From the NCBI RefSeq assembly GCF_028289705.1, contig NZ_JANQOI010000017.1:62001-126000 (forward strand): a DNA stretch of 64,000 nucleotides. Direction: 5' to 3'. The DNA comes from Pelagibius sp. (GTDB lineage Bacteria > Pseudomonadota > Alphaproteobacteria > Kiloniellales > Kiloniellaceae). The notes beneath the pieces are model-generated. The model had not been told where the DNA came from and did not search any database. It saw only the letters and a program-made list of their open reading frames with translations. The position numbers and the translations under genes were made by a program. Shown here one piece after another: positions 26,267 to 41,692 of the stretch (position 1 is its first letter; every line of letters begins with the position of its first letter).

Positions 26267-26839
26267 TTAGAGGGCCTCGGCCACGCCGGTTCGGAGGATC
26301 CGGACCACCGAGCGTGCATCGTCGATGGCCCGGTGCGCGGTGCCCTCAGGCGGCAGGCCCACCTTCCTGAGAGCGCCGTCCAGCCCCATCCCGCGCCGAA
26401 GCTTGAGGTGCTTGGCAAAGGCTTCCTTGACGTTCACGTAAGGCAGGGCCTCGAAGGGGTTGTCGATTCCGTGCTTGGCGCAGTCCCGGCCGATCTGCGC
26501 GCCGTCGTAATTGCCCCAGGCAGCCAGGGTGAAATCCCCCGCCTCTGTAGCCCAGCGGTGGAACGCCTGCAGGGCTTCGGGAAACCGCGGCGCAGAGTCG
26601 ACGTCGGACTGGCGGATCGTGGTCAGCTCGGTACAGAAGGCCGAGAGCTTCGGCGCCATGAAGGGCCGCACGAAGGTTTGAAACTCGGGCGTCATGGTGC
26701 CCGGAGTCTCAGGCGCCTCATCCGGGCCGGGCAGGCTGAACCGAACGGCGCCGATTTCGATGATTTCCGAGGGAGCCTGCTCCTTGCCCCGGTGCCAGCA
26801 GGTTGCCTCCAGGTCAAAGACCACGTAGCGCTTTGCCAT
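26267..26839 (-). CDS. DEDDh-type 3'-5' exonuclease (KapD/ERI-1-like)
   Basis: A protein of about 190 residues with the RNase T/DnaQ fold. Exo I is YVVFDLEATCW (metal Asp and Glu), Exo II lies around AAWGNYDGAQI and Exo III is GTAHRAIDDARSVV with the catalytic His and Asp. Small exonucleases of this branch act on RNA or single-stranded DNA. ATG 26839 starts directly before the conserved beta strand; ATG 26896 is possible but adds a non-conserved stretch. It is divergent from the glycan cluster across a 236-base region that contains a palindromic operator candidate. Confidence 0.85.
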   Translation of the reverse strand: MAKRYVVFDLEATCWHRGKEQAPSEIIEIGAVRFSLPGPDEAPETPGTMTPEFQTFVRPFMAPKLSAFCTELTTIRQSDVDSAPRFPEALQAFHRWATEAGDFTLAAWGNYDGAQIGRDCAKHGIDNPFEALPYVNVKEAFAKHLKLRRGMGLDGALRKVGLPPEGTAHRAIDDARSVVRILRTGVAEAL

Positions 26840-26950: not shown

Positions 26951-26996
26951 GTTCATAATCAGAACATTGACAGAGGCAACCCTTCGAGAGTAGACA
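26951..26996 (+). promoter_or_regulatory. Palindromic operator GTTC-N7-GAAC abutting a TTGACA promoter (glycan cluster start)
   Basis: GTTC at 26951-26954 and GAAC at 26962-26965 form a palindrome; one base later comes TTGACA (26967-26972), an 18-base spacer and TAGACA (26991-26996). The same arrangement recurs at 31511-31557 before the winged-helix regulator. This part of the gap is AT-rich and serves the + strand gene at 27076, and perhaps the divergent exonuclease gene. Confidence 0.5.
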
Positions 26997-27075
26997 GAGC
27001 CAACGGGCGGGCCGGGCGCCGAGTCCCGCCGGATGCGTGCACCCGGCTTCCAATCCGGCACGTCAAAGGGAAACC

Positions 27076-28626
27076 ATGCAAGCTGCCGCGATCCTCTATT
27101 TGGTCGACACGATGTTCGGCAACCGCTTCTGGTTCCCGCTGTTCGAGCGCGCCCATGCGGCCGGCGGCTACGCGGTCGATGCGGTCTGCTTCCAAAAGCA
27201 TCAGCGCAAGTCGTTTCAAACCCTTGCCTGTTGTCGGCATGTCTATCCCGAACCCGAGTTCGTCTATGGCTACGCGGAGCTTCCGGACCGGCCGGACCCC
27301 GAGCTGGCTGACTGGGTACGGGATTTCGAGCGGGAAGCGGGCTGCCTGATCACCGATCTGATTCAGGCCGACCGCCATGTCGGCCTCGGGTTCCAGCAGG
27401 CCGGCCTCAACAATCCCGAGACCCATAACCGGCGCAAGGCCGCCTACTGGCGCACGCTGCGCTACATCAGGCAGCTCGACGGCTATGTCGAGGAGATCCT
27501 CGACCGCTCCGCCCCGAGCCTGGTGGTCACCTCGGTGGTCGCCGATCTCTACAGCAAGCTGATCTGCGCCAAGGCCCGGGCCCGCGGCATCCCCATCAGA
27601 ATGTTCAACTCGCTGCAGGTCGGCAGCCTTTATGGCTGGTATCACGACGAGTACTGGACCCATCCGCCTCTGAGACACGCCCTGCAAGGCAAGATCGACG
27701 CGGCCCCACCGCAACTGGTCACCCCACCCGTGGGCAGCGGAACGCCGGAAGGCGCCAATCAGGATCTCGAGCCGGTTTACGCCACGCACTACCTGGCGAA
27801 GCTGAAGGCCGGCCTGGGCCTGCGCGCGCTGCTGCGCAGCCTGGTCCAGGAGGCAAAGCGATCGCTTGGCAATCTCAAAACGAAACGCCCCGACCGCCCG
27901 AGCTTCCTTGAGGCCGCCAAGCTGCAACTCCGCATACGACGCCAGTTCAGGGAGCTGGAACGGCGCGTGGGACAGCAGCCGGAGGAACTGCCCGAGCCCT
28001 TCGTGCTCTACGCGCTCCACAAGGAGCCGGAGGCCTCGACCATGGTCAAGGCGCCGGAGTTCAACAATCAGCTCGCGATCATCGACCTGGTGGCGCGCGC
28101 GCTGCCCGGCGGCTACACGCTGCTGGTCAAGGAGAGCATGGTGTCCCTCGGCTTCCGCTCCCAGGGCTTCTATCAGGCCGTTTCCGAGTTGCCCAACGTG
28201 CAGCTCGTCATGCCGGACCGCCGGGCCAGCGATCTTCTGCCGATGGCCGCCGCAACGGTGGTGATCACCGGCACAGTCGGGCTGGAAGCGGCAAGGGCCG
28301 GCATCCCGGTTCTCTCCTTCGGCACGCGGAACAACTACGATCCCATCGAGCACGTCCACGTCGTCACCGACTTCCTGCAGGTTCGCGCGAAGCTGGCCGA
28401 ACTGCTCGCGGAGGTTCCGGAGACCACAAAGCAGCGCCGCGCGCGCCAGGCCCGGCTCTACGACGAGGCCGCCGCCGAGCTGGGGATCGAGATCGGGGAG
28501 TTCTTCGAGGCCAAACGCCGCAGCTCGGCACCGGTCGCCGAGCATGTCATCGAGCGCGCCATCGACCTGCTGTTGGCCTCGCTCTCCAGCACGCCACAGC
28601 CGGCGCGGAGGGTTTCGCAATCGTAA
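27076..28626 (+). CDS. Capsule-polysaccharide-synthesis-like protein (PF05159-like, GT-B)
   Basis: A 516-residue soluble protein. The C-terminal half has the pattern of capsule synthesis/Kdo-transferase-like proteins: YALHKEPEASTMV, TLLVKESMVSLGFRSQGFY, and VITGTVGLEAARAGIPVLSFG near the sugar-nucleotide site. The N-terminal half is a variable acceptor-side domain. GGGAA precedes ATG 27076. A paralogue with the same C-terminal motifs lies at 36069-37631. It is first in an operon with a methyltransferase, a PIG-L deacetylase and a FemAB-like protein. The substrate is unknown; glycosyl transfer is inferred from fold-level motifs. Confidence 0.72.
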   Translation: MQAAAILYLVDTMFGNRFWFPLFERAHAAGGYAVDAVCFQKHQRKSFQTLACCRHVYPEPEFVYGYAELPDRPDPELADWVRDFEREAGCLITDLIQADRHVGLGFQQAGLNNPETHNRRKAAYWRTLRYIRQLDGYVEEILDRSAPSLVVTSVVADLYSKLICAKARARGIPIRMFNSLQVGSLYGWYHDEYWTHPPLRHALQGKIDAAPPQLVTPPVGSGTPEGANQDLEPVYATHYLAKLKAGLGLRALLRSLVQEAKRSLGNLKTKRPDRPSFLEAAKLQLRIRRQFRELERRVGQQPEELPEPFVLYALHKEPEASTMVKAPEFNNQLAIIDLVARALPGGYTLLVKESMVSLGFRSQGFYQAVSELPNVQLVMPDRRASDLLPMAAATVVITGTVGLEAARAGIPVLSFGTRNNYDPIEHVHVVTDFLQVRAKLAELLAEVPETTKQRRARQARLYDEAAAELGIEIGEFFEAKRRSSAPVAEHVIERAIDLLLASLSSTPQPARRVSQS

Positions 28627-29405
28627 GGGACCAGAACCTGGAGATCTGGCAGACTGGCGGGCTGGTCGGCGACTACCTCGAGCGCTCGGAGCTCTACCCC
28701 GGCGAAGAGCGTTTTCTGAGCGACCATGCCGAGGAACTCAAGACCGCCAAGCTGCTCGACATCGGGGTCGGCGCCGGGCGGACCACCGCGCGCTTTGCCG
28801 CCGCCGTGCGGGACTATGTGGGTGCCGACTACTCTCCTTCCATGGTCGAGGCGGTCACCCGCAAGTTTGCCGGCAAGCTGGAGAACGCCCGCTTCGAGCA
28901 GGCCGACGCCCGGGATCTCGGCAACCACGCCGAGGGCAGCTTCGATGCCATCCTCTTCAGTTTCAACGGCCTCGACACCCTGGGCGCCGAGGAGCGAGCG
29001 ATGTTCCTGGACGAGGCCCGGAGGGTCCTGCGGGACGATGGCCTGCTGGCCTTTTCCTCCCACAACCTCAGCGCCCTGGACCAGGTGTTCCGCTTCAAGC
29101 GCGCCAGATCGGTGGCCAAGCTGATCGAACACACCAAGCGCAAGGCGATCCAGCTTTCGCGCAATCCGCCGCTGTCCAAACTGATGGCCCGGGATTGGGC
29201 GCTGGTCTACGACGGCACCCACGGCAAGCTGTTGCGCCACTACTATGTGACGCCGCCGGCCCAGGTGCGCCAACTGGCCGAGCACGGCTTCGGCGAGATC
29301 CGGGTGATCGACACCAAAACCGGCGACGAGTTGGAGCCGGACTCCCGGGCCGCAGCGCGAGCGCGCTGGCCCTACTTCTTCGCCCGGGCCCAGAAGCGCG
29401 CCTGA
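28620..29405 (+). CDS. Class I SAM-dependent methyltransferase with a non-canonical start codon
   Basis: About 261 residues. SAM motif I is LLDIGVGAGRTT, then VGADYSPSMVEA, FDAILFSFNGLDTL (motif II) and VLRDDGLLAFSSHN (motif III). Motif I lies upstream of the first in-frame GTG (28806), and no in-frame ATG, GTG or TTG occurs from there back past the end of the preceding gene. The best candidates are ATC 28620, with a perfect GGAGGG seven bases upstream and overlapping the preceding stop, or CTG 28638 with AAGGGA upstream. The coordinates use ATC 28620. A base error is the other explanation. Substrate unknown, probably a sugar or lipid precursor. Confidence 0.72.
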   Translation: MVRDQNLEIWQTGGLVGDYLERSELYPGEERFLSDHAEELKTAKLLDIGVGAGRTTARFAAAVRDYVGADYSPSMVEAVTRKFAGKLENARFEQADARDLGNHAEGSFDAILFSFNGLDTLGAEERAMFLDEARRVLRDDGLLAFSSHNLSALDQVFRFKRARSVAKLIEHTKRKAIQLSRNPPLSKLMARDWALVYDGTHGKLLRHYYVTPPAQVRQLAEHGFGEIRVIDTKTGDELEPDSRAAARARWPYFFARAQKRA

Positions 29406-29430
29406 GCCATGTCTGGCGGTTGGTGAGCGG

Positions 29431-30279
29431 ATGCTGAGACTTCTGAAGCGCACGGGACGGCGGCTGGTGGCGGGTCTGGCCTCGCCGGCACCCAGCGCGG
29501 AGCTCTGGAAATCCGTGGCGGAGCTGCAACATGCGGCCAGGGTGGTGGATCTGGCGCGCCGGCGCGCGCTTTTCACCCCCCAGCTCACCGAGGCGCCCAA
29601 GGACCAGCGCGTTGTCGTCATCGCTCCGCATCCGGACGACGAGGTGATCGGCTGCGGCGGCACCCTGATCCTGGCGCGCCGGCACGGCTGCGCCGTCCGG
29701 GTCGTCTATCTGACCTCCGAAGGCTTCCAGGGCGCCGAGCAGCGGGTCGCCGAGGCGCGGCAGGTCTGCACCCACCTGGGGGCCGAGGCGGTGTTCCTGC
29801 CGTTCGTGCCCGGCCGGATCCCGATCACCGAGGACGCGGCGCGGCAGTTGGCCGAGGCCGTCGAGGCCTTCTCGCCCGGCCACATATTCCTGCCCTTCAT
29901 CCTCGACGATCACGACGATCACCGCCGCGCCATCGAATTGTTTCGCGCGGCGGCCGGCTCCGGCCATCTGCGCGGTGAGCCAATGCTCTGGGCCTACCAG
30001 GTCTACAGCGGCGCGCCCCTGCCGAACGTCGTCGACATCTCCGAGGCGGCGTCAGAAAAGCGCACCGCCATTGCCTTCTACCGCTCGGAGATGGAAAAGC
30101 GGCACTGGGCCCACTATGCCCTGGGGCAGAACGCCGCCGCGTCCCGGTTTCTGCCCTCCAGCGCCAGGGAACACTACGCAGAGTTGTTCTTCCGCTCGAC
30201 GCTGGAGGACTACCTGGCGCTGGCGGACACCTACTTCGCGCAAGGTAACACCTACCACCGCAGCTACCGGGACGGCTGA
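29431..30279 (+). CDS. PIG-L/LmbE-family deacetylase
   Basis: A 282-residue zinc-dependent N-deacetylase. The metal motif is VIAPHPDDEVIGCGG (His67, Asp70) and the second motif FILDDHDDHRRAIELF supplies further metal and catalytic residues. Members remove acetyl groups from GlcNAc-containing lipids, mycothiol precursors or bacillithiol, and in glycan clusters from amino sugars. ATG 29431 is 25 bases after the methyltransferase stop. The next gene is a FemAB-like acyltransferase, so removal of an acetyl followed by re-acylation is a reasonable inference. Confidence 0.88.
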   Translation: MLRLLKRTGRRLVAGLASPAPSAELWKSVAELQHAARVVDLARRRALFTPQLTEAPKDQRVVVIAPHPDDEVIGCGGTLILARRHGCAVRVVYLTSEGFQGAEQRVAEARQVCTHLGAEAVFLPFVPGRIPITEDAARQLAEAVEAFSPGHIFLPFILDDHDDHRRAIELFRAAAGSGHLRGEPMLWAYQVYSGAPLPNVVDISEAASEKRTAIAFYRSEMEKRHWAHYALGQNAAASRFLPSSAREHYAELFFRSTLEDYLALADTYFAQGNTYHRSYRDG

Positions 30280-30331
30280 CGCGGTGGCCCCTCGACCCCC
30301 TTCGATTGCGCGCGCCGGGAGCGCCCGCTAG

Positions 30332-31378
30332 GTGACGGAGCTCAGGGTTCTGACCGCACGCAACGAAGAGGTGGCGCCGCTGCTGAAGACCCTGGAGGGC
30401 TATGGCGCCCCCGCGCATTGCCTTGCCGCCCCCGCGTGGCTTCCGGTGCTGTCCAAGGCCTATGGGGTCGAGACCGTCTTCTTCCATCTGCGCGAAGCCG
30501 ATGGCCGGCGGATCGCCGGCCAGCTTCCCGCCTACTACGGGAAGGGGGGCAAGGCACTCTACGGCCTGCGCTACGGCCTGCGGGCCCGCAGCGCGCAACA
30601 GGCCGAAGCGCTTCTGAAGAGCGCTGAGGACTTCGCCAGAACCAACGGCCTGGCGAAGATCGACCTTGGACTGGAGGCGGGCCTGGCCTTGACGCATGCC
30701 GATGTTATCACGGCGGCAACGTTTTCCTTCGATCTGAGCGGCTGCCGCGGAGAGGACGATCTCTGGCCGCTTCTGTCCCAGAGCGGCCGGCGCGCCCTGC
30801 GCGCGGCCCTGCGCAGCGACCAGCGCCCGTGCAGCGGCTGGGAGCACTTTGACGCCGCCTTTCGGCTGTATCGGGAGGCCATGGCGCCCAAGGGCGTGAG
30901 GGTGCACAGCGAAGCTTTCCTGCGCGCAATCGCCGAAGGCTTCCCCGACAGCTTCGTGCCGCTGGTCTGCTATGAAGACGAGACCCCCGTCGCGTCTGCC
31001 TTCCTGCTGCTCGGCGAGGACGTCGGCGCCTATCTCTATGGCGGCACCACCGCGCGCGGCACCGACCTCAGGTCGGCAACGCTGCTCTACTTCACCATGA
31101 TGAAGCTCTGCCAGGAACGCGGACTGGCCTGCTTCGATGCCGGCGAGTCGGCGCAAGGCAGCGGCACCTTCGAGTTCAAGCGGCGCCTGGGGGGCCGGCA
31201 GGTCGAGATCTGCTACCTGCGCAAAACGGTCAGCGGCCAAGGCAGTCTCGGGGCGGCGGCAGCCCGGCAGGTCTCGCGCCTCACCGCCGGGCTCGCCCGC
31301 GCGGCCGCCAAGGGGCCCTTGGCGGCCCTGGCCCCCCGTGGCGGCGGACAGAACATCACCGCGCGGCGGATCATCTGA
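30332..31378 (+). CDS. FemAB/GNAT-like acyltransferase
   Basis: A 348-residue protein of the FemAB-like (BioF2-like) acetyltransferase group: an N-terminal GNAT-like lobe (LSKAYGVETVFFHL, LYGLRYGLRARSAQQAEALL) and a second lobe (YREAMAPKGVRVHSEAFL, VASAFLLLGEDVGAYLYGG, CFDAGESAQGSGTFEFKRRL). Such proteins in polysaccharide clusters are thought to acylate amino sugars or link amino acids. GTG 30332 is used; no ATG fits. It closes the first operon of the cluster. Confidence 0.75.
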   Translation: MTELRVLTARNEEVAPLLKTLEGYGAPAHCLAAPAWLPVLSKAYGVETVFFHLREADGRRIAGQLPAYYGKGGKALYGLRYGLRARSAQQAEALLKSAEDFARTNGLAKIDLGLEAGLALTHADVITAATFSFDLSGCRGEDDLWPLLSQSGRRALRAALRSDQRPCSGWEHFDAAFRLYREAMAPKGVRVHSEAFLRAIAEGFPDSFVPLVCYEDETPVASAFLLLGEDVGAYLYGGTTARGTDLRSATLLYFTMMKLCQERGLACFDAGESAQGSGTFEFKRRLGGRQVEICYLRKTVSGQGSLGAAAARQVSRLTAGLARAAAKGPLAALAPRGGGQNITARRII

Positions 31379-31510
31379 GGCCTTGCAGGTCGATTTCTGC
31401 ATGGGCAGATCCGTGCCCCGGAAGCCATCCGGCATCCAGCCTCACGGCCCTCTTGAGGGTTCAATTTCCTGTGTTTAACAATTTGAAAATAATACTTAAT
31501 TCTCTACAGA

Positions 31511-31557
31511 GTTCAGGTGGTGAACACTTGACAGCAGCCATTTCAGAGGAGTAGAAG
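31511..31557 (+). promoter_or_regulatory. Palindromic operator GTTC-N7-GAAC abutting TTGACA-N18-TAGAAG promoter (regulator gene)
   Basis: GTTC 31511-31514 and GAAC 31522-31525 form a palindrome; TTGACA is at 31528-31533 and TAGAAG at 31552-31557 after 18 bases. The same design occurs before 27076. A transcript would begin near 31564, just before the AAGGGAG ribosome binding site of the regulator gene. The surrounding gap (31379-31576) is clearly AT-richer than the genes and also has TTAAC at 31475. Confidence 0.55.
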
Positions 31558-31576: not shown

Positions 31577-32266
31577 TTGAAGACTCACAGGGGTGCGCCG
31601 GAGCAGCGCTTGGCCTCGCAGAACGAACCAGCCGTCGAACAGGATCAGGAAGGCGATTCCACACGCCTGATCCTGCATGCGATCGAGTCGCGGGACCGGG
31701 TGACCCAGCGGGGCCTGGCCGCCGAGCTGGGCATCGCCCTGGGCCTGACCAACATCTATCTGAAGCGCTGCCTCAGCAAAGGCCTGATCAAGATGCGCAA
31801 GGCGCCGGCCCGGCGCTATGCCTATTACCTGACGTCGAAAGGCTTCACCGAAAAGGCGCGGCTGACCGCCAAGTTCCTGCGCCGCTCCCTCAGCTTCTTT
31901 CGCCTGGCCCGCCAGGACTGTGCCGAACTCTTCGATCAGTGCCGCAACAGGGGCATCGAGAAGGTCGCCTTCGTCGGCGCCGGGGATCTCTGCGAGATCG
32001 CATCGCTGGCCGCGCTCGACAGTGAGGTCGAGGTGGTCGCGGTGCTGGACGAGGTGACCAACCGCCAGAAGGTCGCGGGCATCCCTGTCGTGCGCCGCCT
32101 CGATCAGCTTCCCGCGGCGGAAATTCTGGTGATCACCGATACCAGGGACCCGCAGGCCTGCTTCGACCGTCTGGCCGAATGGCATCCGCCGGAGAAGATC
32201 CTGTTCCCGGGCTTTTTGCACCTCTCGCGGGGCCGCAACGGCGGCCGGGAGGGCAGGTCCCGATGA
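31577..32266 (+). CDS. Winged-helix transcriptional regulator with C-terminal Rossmann domain
   Basis: A 229-residue protein. Residues 25-95 form a MarR-like winged helix (STRLILHAIESRDRVTQRGL, AAELGIALGLTNIYLKRCL, then the wing APARRYAYYLTSKGF). From about residue 127 a Rossmann-like domain begins (KVAFVGAGDLCEIASLAAL, VVAVLDEVTNRQKVAGIPVV) of the kind that binds nucleotides or nucleotide-sugars in CoA-binding and PglD-type proteins. TTG 31577 follows AAGGGAG by four bases. Its last codons overlap the NusG-like gene as ATGA. The position at the head of the nonulosonate genes and its palindromic promoter suggest cluster-specific, possibly autoregulated control. Confidence 0.8.
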   Translation: MKTHRGAPEQRLASQNEPAVEQDQEGDSTRLILHAIESRDRVTQRGLAAELGIALGLTNIYLKRCLSKGLIKMRKAPARRYAYYLTSKGFTEKARLTAKFLRRSLSFFRLARQDCAELFDQCRNRGIEKVAFVGAGDLCEIASLAALDSEVEVVAVLDEVTNRQKVAGIPVVRRLDQLPAAEILVITDTRDPQACFDRLAEWHPPEKILFPGFLHLSRGRNGGREGRSR

Positions 32267-32763
32267 CCGACTGGTATGTGGTGCAGACCCTGGCGCGGTC
32301 CGAGGACCGCGCGGAGATCAACCTGAAACGCCAGGGGTTTCAAAGCTATCTGCCGAAGCTCCGCCGGGAGCGGCGCCACGCCCGGCGGCGGGAGATCGTC
32401 GCCTCGCCGCTCTTTCCCGGCTACCTCTTCGTCGAGATCGACATATCCCGGCAACCTTGGCGCTGCATCAACGGCACCTTTGGCGTGAGCCATCTGGTTT
32501 GCCATGGCAGCAGACCGAGCCCGGTTCCGCTTGGCGTCGTCGAGAGCCTGAGGGCGCGCGAAGACGAGACGGGCTTTGTCACGCTGGAGCCTCGGCGCTT
32601 CGAGCGGGGCGAGGCGCTGCGGTTCGTCAGCGGCGCCATGCGGGACTGTTTCGGCCTTTTCGAAGGCATGGCCGCGCGCGAGCGGGTCATCGTGCTGCTC
32701 GACCTGCTCGGCCGCAAGGTGCGGGTCGAAGCGCCCCTGGACGCCGTCGCCGCGGCGACCTGA
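32263..32763 (+). CDS. NusG-family elongation factor (RfaH-like)
   Basis: A 166-residue specialised NusG paralogue. The NGN domain starts at once (DWYVVQTLARSEDRAEINL, QGFQSYLPKLRRE, SPLFPGYLFVEID) and a KOW-like C-terminal domain follows (GEALRFVSGAMRDCFGLFEG, RVIVLLDLLGRKVRVEAPL). The lack of Lys-rich linkers and the site at the head of a polysaccharide cluster are typical of RfaH/TaA/LoaP proteins, which bind paused polymerase at a leader sequence and suppress termination in long operons. ATG 32263 overlaps the upstream stop. The downstream leader contains an ops-like GCGGTAGC. Confidence 0.9.
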   Translation: MTDWYVVQTLARSEDRAEINLKRQGFQSYLPKLRRERRHARRREIVASPLFPGYLFVEIDISRQPWRCINGTFGVSHLVCHGSRPSPVPLGVVESLRAREDETGFVTLEPRRFERGEALRFVSGAMRDCFGLFEGMAARERVIVLLDLLGRKVRVEAPLDAVAAAT

Positions 32764-32821
32764 CCGGCGCCCGCCCGCGGCGCCTTTGTTCTTCGGTCTT
32801 GGTGAAGTTTTCACCCGGACT

Positions 32822-32882
32822 GCGGTAGCAGTGGTCAAACCCGGTTTTCCCGGAAGGGACTTGCGAAGCACTTCCGGAACCG
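32822..32882 (+). promoter_or_regulatory. Candidate ops-like element and leader hairpin before pseB
   Basis: GCGGTAGC at 32822-32829 is identical to eight contiguous bases of the enterobacterial ops element (GGCGGTAGCGT) that recruits RfaH. Twelve bases later a strong stem begins: CGGTT plus CCGGAAG (32842-32846, 32850-32856) pairs with CTTCCGG plus AACCG (32871-32882), 12 bp with a three-base bulge and a 14-base loop, and no T run follows. The site lies in the 188-base untranslated gap between the RfaH-like gene and pseB. The function is inferred from position and similarity only. Confidence 0.4.
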
Positions 32883-32951: not shown

Positions 32952-33992
32952 ATGTCCCCGTCGACGACCACTGACTTTTCCTCGGACCAGGATTTCGACC
33001 TCAACGGCAAGTCCGTGCTGATCACCGGCGGCACCGGCTCCTTCGGCAAGCGCTTCGTGAAGACGGTCCTGGAGCGCTACCAGCCACGGCGCCTGATCAT
33101 CTTCTCCCGCGATGAACTGAAGCAGTTCGAGATGGCGCTCACCTTCTCGCCGGAACGCTATGCCTGTCTGCGCTACTTCATCGGTGACGTACGCGACAGC
33201 GACCGTCTCGATATGGCCCTGCGGGAGGTCGACGTGGTGGTCCACGCCGCCGCGCTGAAACAGGTGCCGGCGGCCGAGTACAATCCCTTCGAGTGCATCC
33301 AGACCAACGTCATCGGGGCCGAGAACGTGGTCCGCGCCGCCTTGCGCAACGGCGCCGAGCGGGTCATCGCCCTTTCGACCGACAAGGCTGCCAACCCGGT
33401 CAACCTCTATGGCGCCAGCAAGCTGGCCTCGGACAAGATCTTCGTGGCGGCCAACAATCTGAGCGGAACCATCGGCACCTCCTTCTCGGTGGTGCGCTAC
33501 GGCAACGTCATGGGCTCGCGAGGCAGCGTCGTCCCCTTCTTCCAGAAGCTGATCGACGAGGGGGCCGAGAGCCTGCCCATTACCGACGAGAACATGACCC
33601 GCTTCTGGATCACCCTGCAGCAGGGCGTGGACTTCGTGCTGTCCTGCTTCACGCTGATGCGCGGCGGTGAGATCTTCGTCCCCAAGATCCCGAGCATGCG
33701 CATCACCGACCTGGCGAAGTTCATGGCACCGGCGCTGCCGCATCGCGAGGTGGGCATCCGCCCCGGCGAGAAGATCCACGAGGTGCTGATCACCGAAGAG
33801 GACTCGCGCAACACCTTCGAGTTGGCCGACCGCTACATGATCATGCCGGAGTTCAAGAGCTACCTGCGCCCCAACCCCGAAGAGCTCGGCGCCTCGCCGG
33901 TCCAACCGGGGTTCAAGTTCGCCAGCAACAACAACGACGACTGGCTCGACGAGACCCGTCTGGCCACCATGATGCAAGAAGCCGCGGAGTGA
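32952..33992 (+). CDS. pseB: UDP-N-acetylglucosamine 4,6-dehydratase (inverting), PseB
   Basis: A 346-residue SDR enzyme that starts pseudaminic acid synthesis. Cofactor motif LITGGTGSFGKRF (about 24-36). The atypical active site STDKAANPVNLYGASK supplies Asp144, Lys145, Tyr153 and Lys157, as in FlaA1/PseB. HAAALKQVPAAEYNPFECI is the family signature. The extra C-terminal 25 residues (VQPGFKFASNNNDDWL) are usual. It is followed by pseC with a one-base stop/start overlap. It acts in the cytoplasm. Confidence 0.95.
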   Translation: MSPSTTTDFSSDQDFDLNGKSVLITGGTGSFGKRFVKTVLERYQPRRLIIFSRDELKQFEMALTFSPERYACLRYFIGDVRDSDRLDMALREVDVVVHAAALKQVPAAEYNPFECIQTNVIGAENVVRAALRNGAERVIALSTDKAANPVNLYGASKLASDKIFVAANNLSGTIGTSFSVVRYGNVMGSRGSVVPFFQKLIDEGAESLPITDENMTRFWITLQQGVDFVLSCFTLMRGGEIFVPKIPSMRITDLAKFMAPALPHREVGIRPGEKIHEVLITEEDSRNTFELADRYMIMPEFKSYLRPNPEELGASPVQPGFKFASNNNDDWLDETRLATMMQEAAE

Positions 33993-35200
33993 TGGGCGAA
34001 CCGCCCCCTTTCCTGCCCTACGGGCGCCAACTCGTCGACGAGGACGACATCGCCGCGGTCACAGAAGTGCTGCGTGGCGACTGGCTGACGACAGGGCCGA
34101 TGGTCGAACGCCTGGAAGAAGCGGTGCGCGGCTACATCGGCGCGGAGCATGCCATCGCCTGCGCCAATGGGACCGCGGCCCTGCACCTGGCGGCGATGGC
34201 ACTCGGCCTGGGGCCCGGCGACAAGGTGATCGTGCCCGCCGTCACCTTCCTGGCCACCGCCAATGCGGCCACCTACGTGGGGGCCGAGGTGGTCTTTGCC
34301 GACTGCGATGCCACGGACGGCCTGATGGGGCCGGCGGAGCTCGAAGACGCGCTGGAGCGCGCCGGGCCCGGCGTCAAAGCGGTCTTCCCCGTCCACCTGG
34401 CCGGCCAGTGTTCCGATCTCGATGCCATCTACGCGATTGCGCGGCGCCACGGGCTTGCCGTCGTCGAGGACGCCGCCCATGCCATCGGCACACGGATCGC
34501 CGGGGCGGACGGCCGGGAACGCTTCATCGGCGATTGCCCGGAGGCCGGCCTCGCCACCTTCTCCTTTCACCCCGTCAAGACCATGACCATGGGCGAAGGC
34601 GGCATGGTCACGACCAATGACTCAAATCTCGCGGAGCGCGCCCGGCGCTTCCGCTCCCACGGCATGCGGCGCGAGCCCGAGGCCTTCGAGAACAGCGCCA
34701 TGGCCTTCATGCAGGATGGCGGGGCCAATCCCTGGTACTACGAGATGGCGGAACCGGGCTTCAACTACCGCGCCACCGATTTTCAGTGCGCCCTGGGCCT
34801 CAGCCAGTTCAAAAAGCTGGAGCGCTTCGTCGCGCAGCGCCGGGCGCTGGCCGAGCACTACGACACTCTCCTGCGCGACCTCCAGCTTCCGGTCACGCCG
34901 ATCCGCAGGAACCCGCTCTGCACGGCGGCCTGGCACCTCTATGCCGTGCTCATCGACTTCGACGAGATCGAGGTCGAGCGCGGCGCGGTGATGCAGCGGC
35001 TGCGGGAGCAGGGCATCGGCACGCAGGTGCACTACATCCCGGTCCACACGCAGCCCTTCTACCGCCGCAGGAACGGCGATCTTTCGTTGCCCGGGGCCGA
35101 GCGCTACTACGCCCAGACCCTCTCCCTGCCGCTCTTCGCCGGCATGGACGAGAGCGACGTCGACCGGGTCGCCACCGCTCTACAGACCAGCCTGCGCTGA
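33992..35200 (+). CDS. pseC: UDP-4-amino-4,6-dideoxy-N-acetyl-L-altrosamine transaminase, PseC
   Basis: A 402-residue PLP aminotransferase of the DegT/DnrJ/EryC1/StrS family. Motifs: GDWLTTGPMVERLEEA at the start, CANGTAALHLAAMALGLGPG, VEDAAHAIGT (PLP Asp) and the PLP lysine at K196 in SFHPVKTMTMGEGG. QVHYIPVHTQPFYR near the C-terminus is typical of PseC. ATG 33992 overlaps the pseB stop (TGATG); a GTG lies one codon upstream. It aminates the PseB product at C4. Confidence 0.95.
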   Translation: MGEPPPFLPYGRQLVDEDDIAAVTEVLRGDWLTTGPMVERLEEAVRGYIGAEHAIACANGTAALHLAAMALGLGPGDKVIVPAVTFLATANAATYVGAEVVFADCDATDGLMGPAELEDALERAGPGVKAVFPVHLAGQCSDLDAIYAIARRHGLAVVEDAAHAIGTRIAGADGRERFIGDCPEAGLATFSFHPVKTMTMGEGGMVTTNDSNLAERARRFRSHGMRREPEAFENSAMAFMQDGGANPWYYEMAEPGFNYRATDFQCALGLSQFKKLERFVAQRRALAEHYDTLLRDLQLPVTPIRRNPLCTAAWHLYAVLIDFDEIEVERGAVMQRLREQGIGTQVHYIPVHTQPFYRRRNGDLSLPGAERYYAQTLSLPLFAGMDESDVDRVATALQTSLR

Positions 35201-35266
35201 GCGGCGGCAAGCGCCCCCGCGCATCCTTCGCCCGTCGCATCATTCGACAGAGACCCGAACCACGCG

Positions 35267-35971
35267 ATGAAGCTCGCCATCATTCCCGCAAGGGCCGGCA
35301 GCAAGCGGATAAAGAACAAGAACATCGTCGACTTCTGCGGCCGGCCGATGATTTCCTACGCGCTCACCTGCGCGCAGGACTCCGGGCTGTTCGACAAGAT
35401 CCACGTGTCCACCGACAGCCGGGAGATCGCGGATCTGGTGGAACGCCTCGGCTTTCCGGTCGACTTCCTGCGCAGTCCGGATCTGGCGGACGACCGGACC
35501 CATGTGACGCCGGTCATGCGCTGGGTCATCAGGCAATACCGCCAGGCGGGGACGGAAGTAGAGAGCGTCTGCCTTCTCTTTCCCTGTTCGCCACTGATCG
35601 AGCCCTCCGACCTGCAGGCCGCCCATGGAAGCTTCGAAGCCCAGAACGGCAGCGTGCCGGTGCTTGCTGTCGTTCCCTTCCCCTTCCCCATTCAGCGGGC
35701 CTTGTCCGAGCGGCCCGACGGCCTGCTCGCGCCGCACTTTCCCGAGTACTGGGCCGCGCGGTCGCAAGATCTGGTTCCGACCTTTCATGACACCGGGACC
35801 TTCGGCTTCTTCGGCACCGAACACCTGCTGCGTTGCGGCGAGACTTTCGGCGACCGCTTCATCCCGCACTTCCTGCCGCGCCACAAGGTGATCGACATCG
35901 ATGAGCCGGAAGACCTGGAGCTGGCGGAAATCCTGTTCCGGGGCGCTCAGGCGCGTGCGCGCGCCGGATAG
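35267..35971 (+). CDS. pseF: Pseudaminic acid cytidylyltransferase, PseF
   Basis: A 234-residue CMP-sugar synthetase. The N-terminal IIPARAGSKRIKNKNI is the CTP-binding loop. FPFPIQRAL and RSQDLVPTFHDTGTFGFFG separate PseF from NeuA, and HKVIDIDEPEDLELAE holds the metal Asp residues. It activates the nonulosonic acid as CMP-sugar. ATG 35267 lies 66 bases after pseC. Two other CMP-sugar synthetases follow at 43277 and 47807. Confidence 0.9.
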   Translation: MKLAIIPARAGSKRIKNKNIVDFCGRPMISYALTCAQDSGLFDKIHVSTDSREIADLVERLGFPVDFLRSPDLADDRTHVTPVMRWVIRQYRQAGTEVESVCLLFPCSPLIEPSDLQAAHGSFEAQNGSVPVLAVVPFPFPIQRALSERPDGLLAPHFPEYWAARSQDLVPTFHDTGTFGFFGTEHLLRCGETFGDRFIPHFLPRHKVIDIDEPEDLELAEILFRGAQARARAG

Positions 35972-35986
35972 AACCGCAGCGGCAAC

Positions 35987-36066
35987 TTAACGAAAAGTTA
36001 CCGGATTCACTCTATGGCTAAGGGACAGATCGCAAGCTCATCGAGGGACGCAAAGCTAAGCCATAG
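35987..36066 (+). promoter_or_regulatory. Leader with TTAAC box and inverted repeat CTATGGCT/AGCCATAG
   Basis: TTAAC at 35987-35991 is followed 21 bases later by TATGGC (36013-36018). An 8-bp perfect inverted repeat has its arms at 36012-36019 and 36059-36066, the second arm ending two bases before the ATG at 36069. The layout resembles the leaders before 41758 and 42634. No strong ribosome binding site is present outside the second arm. Confidence 0.4.
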
Positions 36067-36068
36067 GA

Positions 36069-37631
36069 ATGCGGGTCTTTATTCTCTTCGCGCCGGAGTT
36101 CATCGACTGGGCGCTGGCAATCGCCCGAAGACTCAAGGAAGAGGACCCTTCCTGCCAACTCCTCGGTGTGGCAAGCGGCCCCCCCGAAATCTACGAGCGG
36201 GTCGCCGCGGCGCAGGACTTACAGGTCTCACCTCTCTGGCGCCTGGAAGATCTGGAACGCAGCTGGCTCGACCACGCGCTGGCGCCGGAGCGCCGCAACG
36301 CACTGGAAGCCAGGATCGGCGCCGACGTCCTCCATCGGCTGGTGGTCGCCGACCGCGATCTCGGCCGGGGCTTCATTTCGGGCGGTGTGACCGCCGAAAC
36401 ACCCCTTTCGCGGATTGCCCGCGACCCCCAGCGGCTCGATCGCTACGTCTTCGGCCTGCTGGACCATGTCGAGCGGGCACTGCAGGACAAGGCCGTCGAT
36501 CTGGTGTTCTGCCACAGCGTTGCCGATGCCCCCTCGCTGGCCCTCGGCCTGATGAGCCAAAGCCTCGGCATTCCTTTCGCGCAGGTGCGACATACCCGCA
36601 TCGGATCGCGGGTGCTGATCGACACCTCGCCCTTCGACGAACTGGCGCCGGTGCAGGATTGCTTCGAGCGCATCGTGTTGACCAACCGTTTTCCGGCGGA
36701 CTCGAAGACCACCTCCCACCGCTATCTCAATGCGGCACGCGCGCTCGACTCGGTGCCCGACTATCTGGACTATCACAGACAGCGCATCGGCCGGCAGCTT
36801 GCATGGCCAAAACTTCTGTGGCGGCTGGCGGTCAGCCTGCGCGCGGAATTGCTCGCGGCAAACAGCCCCGGGCGTCAAGGCCTGAGGAACGCATCGCCCC
36901 TCCGCCAGTGCCTGCTGGATCTGAAGGCGGCGATCGAGACACGCCGGCTGCTGTCCTCCGAGACCTTCCTGCCTCTGGGCGAGCGTCCGGCCGGTTCCTT
37001 CGCTTTCTTTCCGCTCCATGTCGACCCGGAAGCGTCGACCATGGTTCAATCGCCGATGCATACCGACCAGCTTTCGCTGGTCGAAGCGGTCGCCAAGAGC
37101 CTGCCCACCGACATGCCGCTGTTGGTGAAGGAACACCTGCCGACCCTCGGGCGCCGGCCCAAGGGCTTCTACGAAAGGCTCAAAGCGCTCCCGAGAGTCC
37201 TGCTGGCCTCGCCCTTCGAAAGCGGTGCGGCGCTGGTGCGCGAGGCGGCCCTGACAACGGTGGTCAGCAGCACCGCCGGATGGGAAGCCATGCTCTTCGG
37301 CAAGCCGGTGGTGGTCATGGCCTATCCGCCCTACGCCATGGTCAACGACGGCTTCGTCCACTGTCCCGATGTGACCAAGCTGCCGGGCGCCATCAGACAG
37401 GCTCTCGCGGGCGAACCGGCGGACGAGCGGCGCCTGGTCGCCTATGTCGCCGCTGCCCTGGCCTGCTCCTTCGAGTGTCCGACCGAGGATCTCTGGGGGG
37501 AGCGGGCAGCCGAGGCCGCCGGCAGCCGCCCGCAGTTGCTGGAAAACCTCGTGGCACAGCTTCGCGACGTCGCGGGACGCGAGCCCGCCGGCCAGGACGA
37601 TATCTGGGAGGCCTTGCGGGAGGCTCTCTGA
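36069..37631 (+). CDS. Capsule-polysaccharide-synthesis-like protein (PF05159-like, second copy)
   Basis: A 520-residue soluble GT-B-like protein and paralogue of the product of 27076-28626. Shared C-terminal elements are FPLHVDPEASTMVQSPMHTD, PLLVKEHLPTLGRRPKGFYE and VVSSTAGWEAMLFGKPVVVM. The N-terminus FILFAPEFIDWALAIARRL begins a Rossmann fold. ATG 36069 is reached just after an inverted-repeat arm. It stands alone between pseF and the NeuB-like gene, with long leaders on both sides. Probably a sugar transferase acting on the cluster's glycan; the substrate cannot be inferred. Confidence 0.72.
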   Translation: MRVFILFAPEFIDWALAIARRLKEEDPSCQLLGVASGPPEIYERVAAAQDLQVSPLWRLEDLERSWLDHALAPERRNALEARIGADVLHRLVVADRDLGRGFISGGVTAETPLSRIARDPQRLDRYVFGLLDHVERALQDKAVDLVFCHSVADAPSLALGLMSQSLGIPFAQVRHTRIGSRVLIDTSPFDELAPVQDCFERIVLTNRFPADSKTTSHRYLNAARALDSVPDYLDYHRQRIGRQLAWPKLLWRLAVSLRAELLAANSPGRQGLRNASPLRQCLLDLKAAIETRRLLSSETFLPLGERPAGSFAFFPLHVDPEASTMVQSPMHTDQLSLVEAVAKSLPTDMPLLVKEHLPTLGRRPKGFYERLKALPRVLLASPFESGAALVREAALTTVVSSTAGWEAMLFGKPVVVMAYPPYAMVNDGFVHCPDVTKLPGAIRQALAGEPADERRLVAYVAAALACSFECPTEDLWGERAAEAAGSRPQLLENLVAQLRDVAGREPAGQDDIWEALREAL

Positions 37632-37709
37632 CCGGCGCAGAGCCGAGGTATTAGGGGCTGGGTATTCGGGGGCTTGGCCGGCCGCGGATTGCCGTTCCAA
37701 AGCAGATAG

Positions 37710-37855
37710 TTAACAATTCGTTCGTAACTGCCGGTCTAGTCTCAACCTCTTGAGTTGGTTGTTGGCGATCTGTGTGCCAACCGCTTCGCGCTAAAGGTTC
37801 ACAGCTTGCCCCACGGTCGCCCGTTCCGGCGTCAGCAGTCAGATCTTCCGGAACG
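37710..37855 (+). promoter_or_regulatory. Leader of the NeuB-amidation operon: TTAAC-N22-TAGTCT plus inverted repeats
   Basis: TTAAC (37710-37714) and TAGTCT (37737-37742) are exactly 22 bases apart, as in two further leaders. Downstream, GTTGGC-N9-GCCAAC and an 8-bp repeat CGTTCCGG (37822-37829)/CCGGAACG (37848-37855) can form hairpins before the GGAGG ribosome binding site at 37866. The element sits in a 248-base gap. Confidence 0.4.
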
Positions 37856-37879
37856 CCGACGTCTCGGAGGTTTTGCCTG

Positions 37880-38956
37880 ATGGTTGGTTTCGGCAAACGC
37901 CAGGTCGGGGATGGACATCCCTGTTTCATCACCTTTGAAGCCGGGCCGACGCACAGCGGACTGGAATCCGCGATGGAACTCGCCTCGCTGGCTGCCGCCG
38001 CGAAGGCGGACGCCATCAAGTTCCAGATGATCGACCCGGACCGCCTTGTCTCGGACCGCGAGCAGACCATCAGCTTCAAGATCCTGGTGGACAAGGAGAC
38101 GAACCGGACGGAGACCGTCGAGGAACGGCTCTACGACATTCTCTGCCGCCGCGCCCTGACCAAGGAACAGTGGCACAGACTGAAAAAACACTGCGACCGC
38201 CTGGGTCTCGCCTTTTTCGCCACCATCGGCTTCGAGGAGGAGATCGAGCTTCTGGAAGACCTGGGCTGCGATTCCATCAAGATCGCCTCGGCCGACGTCA
38301 ACCACGTCCCGCTCATCCGCCGCGCCGCGCAATCGGGCATGTGTCTGCAGCTCGACACCGGCAACGCCACCATCGGCGAGATCGAAACCACCGTCGACGT
38401 GATCCGCGCCGAAGGCAACGAGAACATCATCATCCATCACTGCCCTTCGGGCTATCCGGCACACCTCGACGGGATCAATCTCCGGGTCATCTCCACCCTG
38501 AAGCAGATGTTCCCCTATCCCATTGCCTACTCCGATCACACACCCGGCTGGGAAATGGATCTGGCCGCGGTGGCGTTGGGCGCGAACCTGGTGGAGAAGA
38601 CAATCAGCAAGGACCGCACCACGCCGGCCATCGAACACATGATGTCCATCGAGCCCCAGGAGATGGACAGCTTCATCAAGGTGATCCGGGATCTGGAAAC
38701 CGCACTGGGGCGCACGCGGCGGGTCATGAGCGGCGTCGAAAGAAAGCGCCGCGCCGCCAACCGGCGCAGCATCCACCTCTGCCGTGACGTCAGGGCCGGC
38801 AAGACGCTGGCCCACGAGGATCTCGACTACCGCCGGCCCGGTTACGGCATTCCGCCCTCGGAAGCCGATTTCGTCGTCGGCCAGACCCTCTGCCGGGCCA
38901 AGCGCAAAGGCGAACGCCTGGACTGGACCGATCTCGCGGCTATGGAGCTGGTCTGA
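37880..38956 (+). CDS. NeuB-family nonulosonate synthase with SAF domain (first of three)
   Basis: A 358-residue protein. The TIM-barrel condensing domain has FEAGPTHSGLESAMELASLA, DAIKFQM, GCDSIKIASADVNHVPLIR, HHCPSGYPAHLDGINL and YSDHTPGWEMDLAAVALGA. The C-terminal SAF/antifreeze-like domain is RRSIHLCRDVRAGKTLAHED. It would condense phosphoenolpyruvate with a 6-carbon amino sugar to a 9-carbon acid. The N-terminal motif (FEAGPTHSG) departs from the usual AEIGxNHxG, so its substrate may differ from that of the PseI copy. ATG 37880 has GGAGG nine bases upstream. Its stop overlaps the HisH start. Confidence 0.85.
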   Translation: MVGFGKRQVGDGHPCFITFEAGPTHSGLESAMELASLAAAAKADAIKFQMIDPDRLVSDREQTISFKILVDKETNRTETVEERLYDILCRRALTKEQWHRLKKHCDRLGLAFFATIGFEEEIELLEDLGCDSIKIASADVNHVPLIRRAAQSGMCLQLDTGNATIGEIETTVDVIRAEGNENIIIHHCPSGYPAHLDGINLRVISTLKQMFPYPIAYSDHTPGWEMDLAAVALGANLVEKTISKDRTTPAIEHMMSIEPQEMDSFIKVIRDLETALGRTRRVMSGVERKRRAANRRSIHLCRDVRAGKTLAHEDLDYRRPGYGIPPSEADFVVGQTLCRAKRKGERLDWTDLAAMELV

Positions 38957-39570
38957 TGCCGCCGCTGGGCGTCGTCGACTACGGGATGGGCAACCTCCGT
39001 TCCGTGCTGAACGCTTTCGAAGAAATCGGTCATGAGGCCGAACTGGTCACCGAGGCCGAAGCGGTCGCCGGCTACGACAGGATCGTCATCCCCGGCGTCG
39101 GGGCGTTTTCGCAGGCCATGGCCAACCTCAGCCGAAGCGCCCTGGACGAGGCCCTGGACCGCCATGTCGCCGCCGGCAAGCCGCTGCTGGGCATCTGTCT
39201 GGGCATGCAACTGATCTGCCGCGAGTCTGACGAGGATGGAACCCACCAGGGGTTCGGCTGGATCGACGCCCAGGTGCGGCACTTTCCGCCCGCCGAAGGG
39301 CTGAAGGTCCCGCACATGGGCTGGAACGCGATCGAGATCGCCCGGGAAAACCCGCTGCTGCGCGAGGTGAATTCCGGGGCGGACGTCTATTTCGTGCACA
39401 GCTACTACGTGGACTGCGCGTCGGCGGAGGACGCGGTCTGCACCACCGAGCACGGCGTCCGCTTCGCCTCGGTGATTGCGAAAGAAAACGTCTTCGGCAT
39501 GCAGTTCCATCCGGAAAAAAGCCAGAACATCGGCATGCAGTTGCTACGCAACTTCGCGACGCTGCATTAG
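38956..39570 (+). CDS. hisH: HisH-like glutamine amidotransferase (glycan amidation module)
   Basis: A 204-residue class I glutaminase. The nucleophile is Cys81 in GICLGMQL and the triad is completed by His185 and Glu187 in FGMQFHPEKS. GMGNLRSVLNAFEEIG and IPGVGAFSQAM are HisH signatures. In O-antigen and pseudaminic clusters this paralogue releases ammonia for a WbpG/PseA-type amidotransferase rather than for histidine synthesis, and the neighbours here (HisF-like, WbpG-like) fit that role. It starts inside the stop codon of the synthase gene. Confidence 0.88.
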   Translation: MPPLGVVDYGMGNLRSVLNAFEEIGHEAELVTEAEAVAGYDRIVIPGVGAFSQAMANLSRSALDEALDRHVAAGKPLLGICLGMQLICRESDEDGTHQGFGWIDAQVRHFPPAEGLKVPHMGWNAIEIARENPLLREVNSGADVYFVHSYYVDCASAEDAVCTTEHGVRFASVIAKENVFGMQFHPEKSQNIGMQLLRNFATLH

Positions 39571-39584
39571 GACGGACCGGTCCG

Positions 39585-40379
39585 ATGGTGAAGAAGAGGC
39601 TTGTGGCGGTGCTGATCCTGCGCGATGGGCAGGTGGTGCAGAGCATCAAGTTCAAGCACACCAACGTCATCCACGCCGACCCGGTCCACGCCATGGAGGC
39701 CTTCAACAAGTGGTCGGTGGACGAGATCGTGCTGTTGAACGTTTCCCGCGAGGAGGAGAGCCGCGCGGCCTTCGCCGAGGCCGTGGAACGGGTCTCCAAA
39801 CACTGCTTCGTGCCGCTCGCCGTGGGTGGCTGGATCACCGAGGTGGACTACGCCCGCGAACTCTTGACCAAGGGCGCCGACAAGCTGGTCCTCAACACCG
39901 CCTTCGCCGACCACCCGGCCTTCGTCGAGGCCGCCTCGAAGCGCTTCGGCAAGCAGTGCATTGTCGCCTCCATCGACGTGAAGCGCGATGACGCCGGTGT
40001 CGCGCATGTGGCCGTCGACCGCGGCCGGCGCCTGCTGGAGGAAACGCCCGCGGCCTGGGCCCAACAGGTCCGGGCCCTGGGCGCCGGGGAAATCTTCTTC
40101 AACTCCGTCGATCACGACGGCGCGCGCAAGGGCTACGACCTTGAATCCGTGAAGGCGATTGTCGAGGCCGTCGACCTGCCGGTCATCGCCTTCGGCGGCG
40201 TCTTCACCTGGTCGCATCTGCTGGCCGGCATCAAGGCCGGCGCCGAGGCCGTCGCCGCGGCCAACATCTTTCACTACACCGAGCAGGCCACCCGCAAGGC
40301 CAAGACCTTCCTCGCCAACGCCGGTGTCCCCGTGCGCAGCGAGGGCCAGAGCCTCGCCCCGGTGCGCGCCGCCGGCTGA
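39585..40379 (+). CDS. hisF: HisF-like ammonia-channel subunit (glycan amidation module)
   Basis: A 264-residue TIM barrel of the HisF family. The conserved Asp of the N-terminal CLDV motif of true HisF is replaced (the strand reads VAVLILRDG), while the second catalytic Asp is kept in ASIDVKRDD. Loss of the first acid is known in the O-antigen-cluster HisF2 type and argues for ammonia channelling to the next protein rather than imidazole-glycerol-phosphate synthesis. Other barrel motifs are AVGGWITEVDYARELL, GADKLVLNTA and VIAFGGVFTWSHLLAGI. It lies between the HisH-like gene and the amidotransferase gene. Confidence 0.87.
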   Translation: MVKKRLVAVLILRDGQVVQSIKFKHTNVIHADPVHAMEAFNKWSVDEIVLLNVSREEESRAAFAEAVERVSKHCFVPLAVGGWITEVDYARELLTKGADKLVLNTAFADHPAFVEAASKRFGKQCIVASIDVKRDDAGVAHVAVDRGRRLLEETPAAWAQQVRALGAGEIFFNSVDHDGARKGYDLESVKAIVEAVDLPVIAFGGVFTWSHLLAGIKAGAEAVAAANIFHYTEQATRKAKTFLANAGVPVRSEGQSLAPVRAAG

Positions 40380-40402
40380 CGAGAGCCAAAAGAACCCAGA
40401 CC

Positions 40403-41692
40403 ATGGACTACTGCGCCCGCTGCCTCTATCCGGCCAACGCCAAGCCGACCATCATCCTCGACGAGGAGGGTGTCTGCAGCGGCTGCCGCTATCACGAAAG
40501 CCGCGATGCCAGCGACGTCGACTGGGAGGAGCGCCGCGAGATCTTCGAGCAGATCCTCGACGAGGCCCGGACCATGGCGAAACAGCGGGGCAACCATCAC
40601 GACTGCATCGTGCCGGTCAGCGGCGGCAAGGATTCCCACTTCCAGGTCTGGATCCTGAAGAAGAAGTACGGGATGAACCCGCTGCTGGTGACCTTCAACC
40701 ACACCTACAACGCCCCGGCCGGGGTGCGGAACCTGGAAAACCTGGTGGAGAAGTCCGGCTGCGATCTGGAGCGCTTCACCGCCGGGCCAGATTCCGTGCG
40801 CCGCATCTCCCGCCACATGCTGGAGACCGTGGGCGACATCACCTGGCACTACCACGCCGGCATCCGCACCTACCCCTTCCAGGTGGCGGTGCAGCGGAAC
40901 ATTCCGCTGATCGTCTGGGGCGAGCACGGCTTTGCCGAGCTGACCGGCATCGTCACCCTGGAGGACTTCGTCGAGTTCACCAAGTGGACGCGCAAGGAAC
41001 ACGATATGCGCGGCTACGAACCGGAGGATCTGATCGGCAAGGGCGGTATCACCCACCACGACATCGCCCCCTACGTCTATCCCAGCGACGAGGAGATCGC
41101 CCGCGCCGACATCCGCGGCATCTACATGAGCAACTTCTTCTTCTGGAATGCCAAGGCCCAGGGCGAAAAGATGATCGCCGAGTGGGACTTCGCGCCGGTG
41201 ACCTATGAGCGCGAGCGCACCTTCAACCTCTATGCCAAGATCGAAGACCACGCCAACGACGTCCACGACTACCTGAAGTATCTCAAGTTCGGCTACGGCC
41301 GGGCCACCGACGACGCCAGCATGGAGATCCGCCACGGGCGCATGACCCGTGAGGAGGGCATCGACATGGTGGCGCGCTACGACGCCAACGAGCCCATGAC
41401 CCTGGAGGGCTATTGCGAGTTTCTGGGGATCAGCAAGCAGGGGTTTTACGATCTGGTGGCGCCGATGCGCGACCCGCAGATCTGGGAGAAGCCGAACGGG
41501 CACTGGACAGCCAAGGATTCCGTGATCCGCCAGCCCATCGGCGCGCGCGAGGAGCGCGCCCGGGTCAGCCAGTCGAACGACCGGACCCTGGCCCCGGAAA
41601 ACCGCCATCTTTACTACAACCCTGCCCTGCCCCCTCTACCCAGGGGCAATCCACTGCTCGACGAACGCCCGCTGCGGTTTAAGACACTTTAA
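40403..41692 (+). CDS. N-acetyl sugar amidotransferase (WbpG/PseA family)
   Basis: A 429-residue ATP-pyrophosphatase-type amidotransferase. A zinc-ribbon-like start CARCLYP...CSGCRYH is followed by the PP-loop VPVSGGKDSHFQVWILKKKYG and the family-typical RTYPFQVAVQRNIPLIVWGE and NFFFWNAKAQGEKMI. Members turn an acetamido group into an acetamidino group on sugars using ammonia from HisH/HisF, giving for example Pse5Ac7Am or amidated ManNAcA derivatives. The three-gene module is complete here. ATG 40403 has a weak ribosome binding site. Confidence 0.9.
   Translation: MDYCARCLYPANAKPTIILDEEGVCSGCRYHESRDASDVDWEERREIFEQILDEARTMAKQRGNHHDCIVPVSGGKDSHFQVWILKKKYGMNPLLVTFNHTYNAPAGVRNLENLVEKSGCDLERFTAGPDSVRRISRHMLETVGDITWHYHAGIRTYPFQVAVQRNIPLIVWGEHGFAELTGIVTLEDFVEFTKWTRKEHDMRGYEPEDLIGKGGITHHDIAPYVYPSDEEIARADIRGIYMSNFFFWNAKAQGEKMIAEWDFAPVTYERERTFNLYAKIEDHANDVHDYLKYLKFGYGRATDDASMEIRHGRMTREEGIDMVARYDANEPMTLEGYCEFLGISKQGFYDLVAPMRDPQIWEKPNGHWTAKDSVIRQPIGAREERARVSQSNDRTLAPENRHLYYNPALPPLPRGNPLLDERPLRFKTL

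Follow-up and report, generated by a model that had tools for sequence, protein, structure and literature searches.

A predicted GTTCA-N5-TGAAC operator shared by two promoters of a Pelagibius glycan cluster with a MarR_EPS-like regulator and an RfaH-like factor

Winged-helix regulators with operators at their own operons, and RfaH factors paired with ops elements, are both known kinds of control. In the capsule loci of Bacteroides, the UpxY/UpxZ pair, one partner of which is a NusG paralogue, is encoded within the clusters, at the head of glycan operons. An HTH regulator next to the RfaH proteins of one cluster (CL4) has already been reported, and RfaH-like recruitment outside E. coli has been described as open (PMC7593976). 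For the operator of the MarR_EPS family (TIGR04176) we found no description in the open-licence literature.

Here we describe a locus in which such elements occur together, within a 64,000-nucleotide stretch of a Pelagibius sp. genome that was analysed as a whole (the window). From comparison of sequences, we consider it quite probable that GTTCA-N5-TGAAC is the operator of the regulator encoded at 31577-32266, setting both the regulator's own operon and a four-gene operon, with an RfaH-like factor and an ops-like element as a second layer. The combination and the assignment of the operator appear to be new.

Two cassettes, their genes and their regulator

The features at the two promoters are as follows.

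26267..26839, minus strand: divergent RNase_T-type 3'-5' exonuclease (Pfam RNase_T, 7.6e-22)
26951..26965, plus strand: operator 1, GTTCATAATCAGAAC, right arm AGAAC where the consensus has TGAAC
26967..26996, plus strand: promoter 1, TTGACA (26967-26972), 18 bases, TAGACA (26991-26996)
27076..31378, plus strand: four-gene block behind promoter 1, present in the window and in the nearest relative (L056)
27076-28626, plus strand: 516 aa capsule-synthesis-like protein, in the block
to 29405, plus strand: methyltransferase, in the block
29431-30279, plus strand: PIG-L type deacetylase, in the block
30332-31378, plus strand: FemAB/GNAT-like acyltransferase, in the block
31511..31525, plus strand: operator 2, GTTCAGGTGGTGAAC, an exact fit to GTTCA-N5-TGAAC
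31528..31557, plus strand: promoter 2, TTGACA (31528-31533), 18 bases, TAGAAG (31552-31557)
31577..32266, plus strand: regulator with a TTG start; MarR_EPS-like winged helix, long helix and Rossmann domain (residues ~127-215)

An earlier note on this DNA had claimed that both promoters carry one cassette, and this was borne out: GTTC-N7-GAAC, TTGACA, exactly 18 bases and TAGACA or TAGAAG stand in the same order at both, with a gap between operator and TTGACA of 1 base at site 1 and 2 bases at site 2. The methyltransferase frame of the block is open from 28617 and contains an LLDIGVGAGR motif, with no ATG, GTG or TTG before 28806; either an unusual start codon or a fault in the assembly would account for this. 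Family libraries returned nothing for the 516 aa protein and a 520 aa protein beyond sub-threshold matches to Capsule_synth.

Within the window, GTTC-N7-GAAC occurs only at the two cassettes (0.8 expected; two reached in 20 of 100 shuffles). Its combination with TTGAC within 0-4 bases is likewise confined to these two places in the 5.41 Mb genome, compared with one place for a reversed-pattern control, and no unrelated promoter with the operator upstream of -35 was found. Without the TTGAC requirement the genome has 43 copies of the palindrome, versus 26 for its reversed control, and among 15 of these 43 places that were inspected none beyond sites 1 and 2 has an adjoining TTGACA. These scans of the genome for a regulon relied on pattern searches, which covered the upstream-of-35 and in-spacer architectures. 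As the cassette count within one genome is near chance, we take its significance from the shared cluster and from conservation in relatives.

Both sites are recognisable in L056, where operator 1 reads GTTCATATTCAGAAC, its arms kept, AGAAC included, and its spacer different, and operator 2 reads GTTCAACTGGTGAAC, with both arms intact and two changes in the spacer. The promoter 1 elements TTGACAG and TAGACAG are conserved across the genus. In a wider search, the regulator was present in 30 of 98 relatives, nearly all of which, where examined, have a GTTCA-N5-TGAAC-like palindrome upstream; because it precedes the regulator gene so regularly, we read the palindrome as, almost certainly, the regulator's own switch, acting on surface-sugar genes.

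We then drew on 80 regulator loci from public genomes, many of them metagenome bins (71 non-redundant loci). Orthologous upstream regions keep the palindrome throughout: GTTCA-N5-TGAAC with at most one mismatch lies no more than 250 bp before the regulator in 80/80 loci, perfectly in 73, where shuffles give an expectation of about one. A de novo search for four-base dyads, which made no use of the motif in the earlier note, ranked GTTC-7-GAAC first (70/71 loci; 0.4 expected). Across 162 sites, gathered with a filter that fixed TTC and GAA and allowed one mismatch overall, the other bases of the arms likewise show strong conservation, unlike those of the spacer, and the full consensus was refined to GTTCA-N5-TGAAC. 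Extra exact operators are rare, with only six in 1.28 Mb of regulator neighbourhoods. A GATTCGRTT-type sequence recurs near the transcription start, just behind the second operator, at eight loci (L065, L081, L085, L089, L092, L114, L117 and L120).

The regulator matches HTH_24 (Pfam, 1.3e-07) and scores 64.5 bits against TIGR04176 (E 7.8e-18), short of the cut-off of 88 bits, and is therefore filed as a relative of that family rather than as a member. The winged helix of all 55 aligned members matches the TIGR04176 model, and the association with extracellular-polysaccharide genes that marks TIGR04176 is found here as well, with glycan genes in the cluster and near many relatives. The predicted structure comprises a winged helix of low confidence, a long helix and a Rossmann domain modelled with confidence; as the fold matches also mostly cover the Rossmann part, we claim nothing from the modelled winged helix. 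A sequence search against solved structures gave no match for the regulator. Its Rossmann part aligns with the NAD domain of Rex (Z ~9-10) and equally well with the Rossmann domain of WbaP (Z 10.3), and 19/55 members give weak matches to TIGR03570, a sugar-acetyltransferase model (NeuD/PglB/VioB). In PglD, the N-terminal part of such a TIGR03570-type protein binds nucleotide sugars, and by inference the signal sensed by the Rossmann domain of the regulator is probably a nucleotide or nucleotide sugar.

A further regulator copy on a P. litoralis contig (G002:C62:72212-72773) matches as two segments, each interrupted by a stop, and is probably a pseudogene. MarR_EPS-type winged helices also occur in open frames of ~700 aa in one alphaproteobacterial family (L197-L202 and L204); no promoter-placed palindrome was found at these long fusions.

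Sign of control, origin and reader of the operator

In 64/80 loci the operator starts at -35 and fills the -35/-10 spacer, usually followed by a second copy at a distance of 22-24 bp; in short TIGR04176 members it lies over the -10/start region, and in the genus Pelagibius it abuts -35 from upstream. Such varied positions across the core promoter speak for repression, which we regard as likely, and the difference in position among lineages makes it less certain for Pelagibius. In this genus the same regulator might instead activate from the same operator, as a dimer centred near -46 that contacts RNA polymerase. Such a role would suit the fixed position of the operator 1-2 bases upstream of -35 in every member of the genus that has this architecture, the weak -10 elements (TAGACA and TAGAAG) and an AT-rich tract upstream, but the spacer-filling operators of the wider family and those covering the -10/start region in short members fit repression, and we consider activation unlikely, if far from negligible.

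The four-gene block is absent from the corresponding place in L057-L060, and in L057-L059 the exonuclease is directly divergent from the regulator; the exonuclease side of that junction matches site 1 of the window, with CAAATCAATGAAATT in two of the three and TAGACAG in all three. From these alignments, it appears that the block was inserted behind an ancestral exonuclease/regulator promoter, the regulator keeping a copy of its own, the order of events being our reconstruction. The likely promoter of the exonuclease, read from the minus strand as TTGATT-18-TATATG, does not overlap operator 1.

Site 1 might then be a relic of the ancestral regulator promoter that is no longer bound after insertion of the block, as its off-consensus AGAAC arm, the loss of one base before TTGACA and the lack of any ops-like element in its leader could suggest. 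Against this, L056 keeps the arms, AGAAC included, and the promoter even though spacer and leader have changed, and similarly imperfect arms occur at other loci (e.g., L061, L062 and L125), making a relic rather improbable.

The presence of the operator tracks that of the regulator. Of the 240 class genomes, 57 encode the regulator; TTGAC-GTTCA-N5-TGAAC was found in 23 of these and in none of the 183 others (hypergeometric p 7e-17, phylogeny ignored). In Pelagibius, one GTTCA-N5-TGAAC-N1-3-TTGACA site lies beside each regulator copy or fragment, and no other genus among 98 genomes has it. The palindrome accompanies the winged-helix family outside the class too, and 11/13 short TIGR04176-type genes, which have no room for a Rossmann domain, carry GTTC-N7-GAAC upstream; since these Rossmann-less members share the palindrome, its specificity goes with the winged helix. 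In other genomes, nucleotide-sugar genes away from the regulator also have operator-bearing promoters, among them the RmlD-like gene of L143, the PseB-like gene of L160 and the nucleotidyltransferase gene of L162. Taken from genome comparison, these results support the proposal in the earlier note that one operator is read by the winged-helix/Rossmann protein, which would control itself and the first operon.

The same note had left room for a LexA-type or other repressor. Such an outside reader of the palindrome would govern the winged-helix gene. The alphaproteobacterial LexA box shares the GTTC half-site and the N7 spacing, but is a direct repeat, whereas the arms here are inverted; GTTC-N7-GTTC was found in 0/71 upstream regions of the regulator, and LexA was rejected as a candidate. 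With the TTGAC-operator also missing from every regulator-less genome and the site following the winged-helix family beyond the class, an outside reader of any kind is very unlikely. Lastly, two such matches in one genome are near the chance level, but a chance likeness of the two promoters is refuted by the retention of both sites in L056, the operator in 80/80 loci and its conservation across genera, families and classes, leaving this explanation a negligible probability.

The RfaH-like factor and the ops-like element

The regulator gene is followed by a second set of features.

32257..32763, plus strand: RfaH-like NusG paralogue (start 32257 or 32263 likely; open frame from 32179)
32796..32820, plus strand: hairpin before the ops-like core, GGTC-GGTGAA-GTT-TTCACC-GGAC
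32810..32832, plus strand: ops-like element, TTCACCCGGACTGCGGTAGCAGT, with core GCGGTAGC at 32822-32829; candidate site at which the RfaH-like factor is recruited
32952..41692, plus strand: nonulosonic-acid type glycan genes, 3' of the ops-like element

The RfaH-like protein contains a NusG domain (Pfam, 5e-21) and scores 128 bits against TIGR01955 (RfaH), below the cut-off of 144.5, and 64 bits against UpxY; its gene adjoins the regulator in 74/80 loci. The glycan genes encode PseB, an aminotransferase, and cytidylyltransferase-like, capsule-synthesis-like, NeuB/PseI-like, HisH/HisF-like and WbuX-like proteins, of which PseB (519.7 bits) and WbuX (335.7 bits) exceed their cut-offs, NeuB and PseI fall below theirs, and the remainder were called from translations.

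We call the GCGGTAGC element ops-like after comparing its letters with the E. coli ops sequence. Behind the RfaH-like gene the consensus is TTCACCCGGACT-GCGGTAGC-GTG, and the element at 32810..32832 is the best match to it within the window (20/23). The exact core occurs behind the RfaH-like gene in 37/71 loci, compared with 0.16% of control stretches, about half of the loci being without it. TCACC-N5-T-GCGGTAGC, with zero mismatches allowed, is found nowhere in the whole genome except at this element. A similar hairpin is present in most of 50 related sequences, with a mean of -13.6 kcal/mol versus -9.3 kcal/mol when the left flank is shuffled.

A scan of the class for ops-like elements gave 14 positive genomes, of which 12 encode the regulator (p 7e-7, phylogeny ignored). 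Operators stand 27-131 bp upstream of six of these elements, amounting to six other genomes with both in one leader; in one of them, G261, the ops element and operator lie 24 kb from the regulator, before a polysaccharide-biosynthesis dehydratase gene. These cases indicate that operons can bear both the operator and the ops element. In L064, L075, L084, L086, L097 and G118 (L174), the regulator and a divergent operon have three or four operators in common, and the leader of that operon contains an ops-like element of its own.

The RfaH-like gene is separated from the ops-like element by a terminator-like stem at 32766-32784, GGCGCC-N7-GGCGCC followed by TTTGTTCTTC (0.3 expected from shuffles), which could limit read-through into the glycan genes.

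Proposed mechanism and relation to known systems

Combining these observations, we propose that a dimer of the regulator would bind the inverted repeat at the promoter, and that binding would set, most likely by repression, the transcription of its own operon, comprising the regulator, the RfaH-like factor and the glycan genes. The second copy of the promoter would place the four-gene operon under the same regulator in this genome. Once the promoter fires, by analogy with E. coli RfaH, the RfaH-like product may be recruited at the hairpin and ops-like element (32796-32832) and may carry RNA polymerase through the long glycan operon. A broader and decidedly tentative extension is that a portable two-key code, consisting of a promoter operator, for a cluster-encoded MarR_EPS-type regulator, and a leader hairpin with ops, for the RfaH-like factor produced by that operon, might mark surface-glycan operons across the Proteobacteria, that operons might join by acquiring the cassette, and that the Rossmann domain might sense the nucleotide-sugar product.

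The widespread and apparently uncharacterised MarR_EPS family and its Rossmann-bearing relatives thereby gain a defined, predicted DNA target, and the family is linked with a factor of the RfaH type and with a recognisable ops-like element beyond the enterobacteria. Both the operator and the ops sites can be used for genome scans, and the window looks like an instance in which an operon has entered a regulon next to a copy of the promoter.

Compared with described systems, the regulator resembles the redox repressor Rex in having a winged helix and a Rossmann domain, but its sequence matches no solved structure, WbaP gives an equally good alignment with its Rossmann domain, and the Rex operator differs from GTTCA-N5-TGAAC. 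With TIGR04176 MarR_EPS proteins it has in common the winged helix, the glycan-cluster setting and the GTTCA-N5-TGAAC found upstream of short members, and it differs by its added Rossmann domain and sub-cut-off score. As in UpxY/UpxZ, a cluster-encoded pair with a NusG paralogue stands at the head of glycan operons; here, however, the NusG paralogue is paired with a winged-helix DNA-binding protein that has a predicted operator of its own, and the RfaH-like protein is nearer to RfaH than to UpxY. The likeness to enterobacterial RfaH/ops extends to an RfaH-like gene in the operon, a GCGGTAGC core before a long glycan operon and a hairpin before that core, while the RfaH-like gene of the window differs in lying inside its own target operon and in scoring below the cut-off of the RfaH model.
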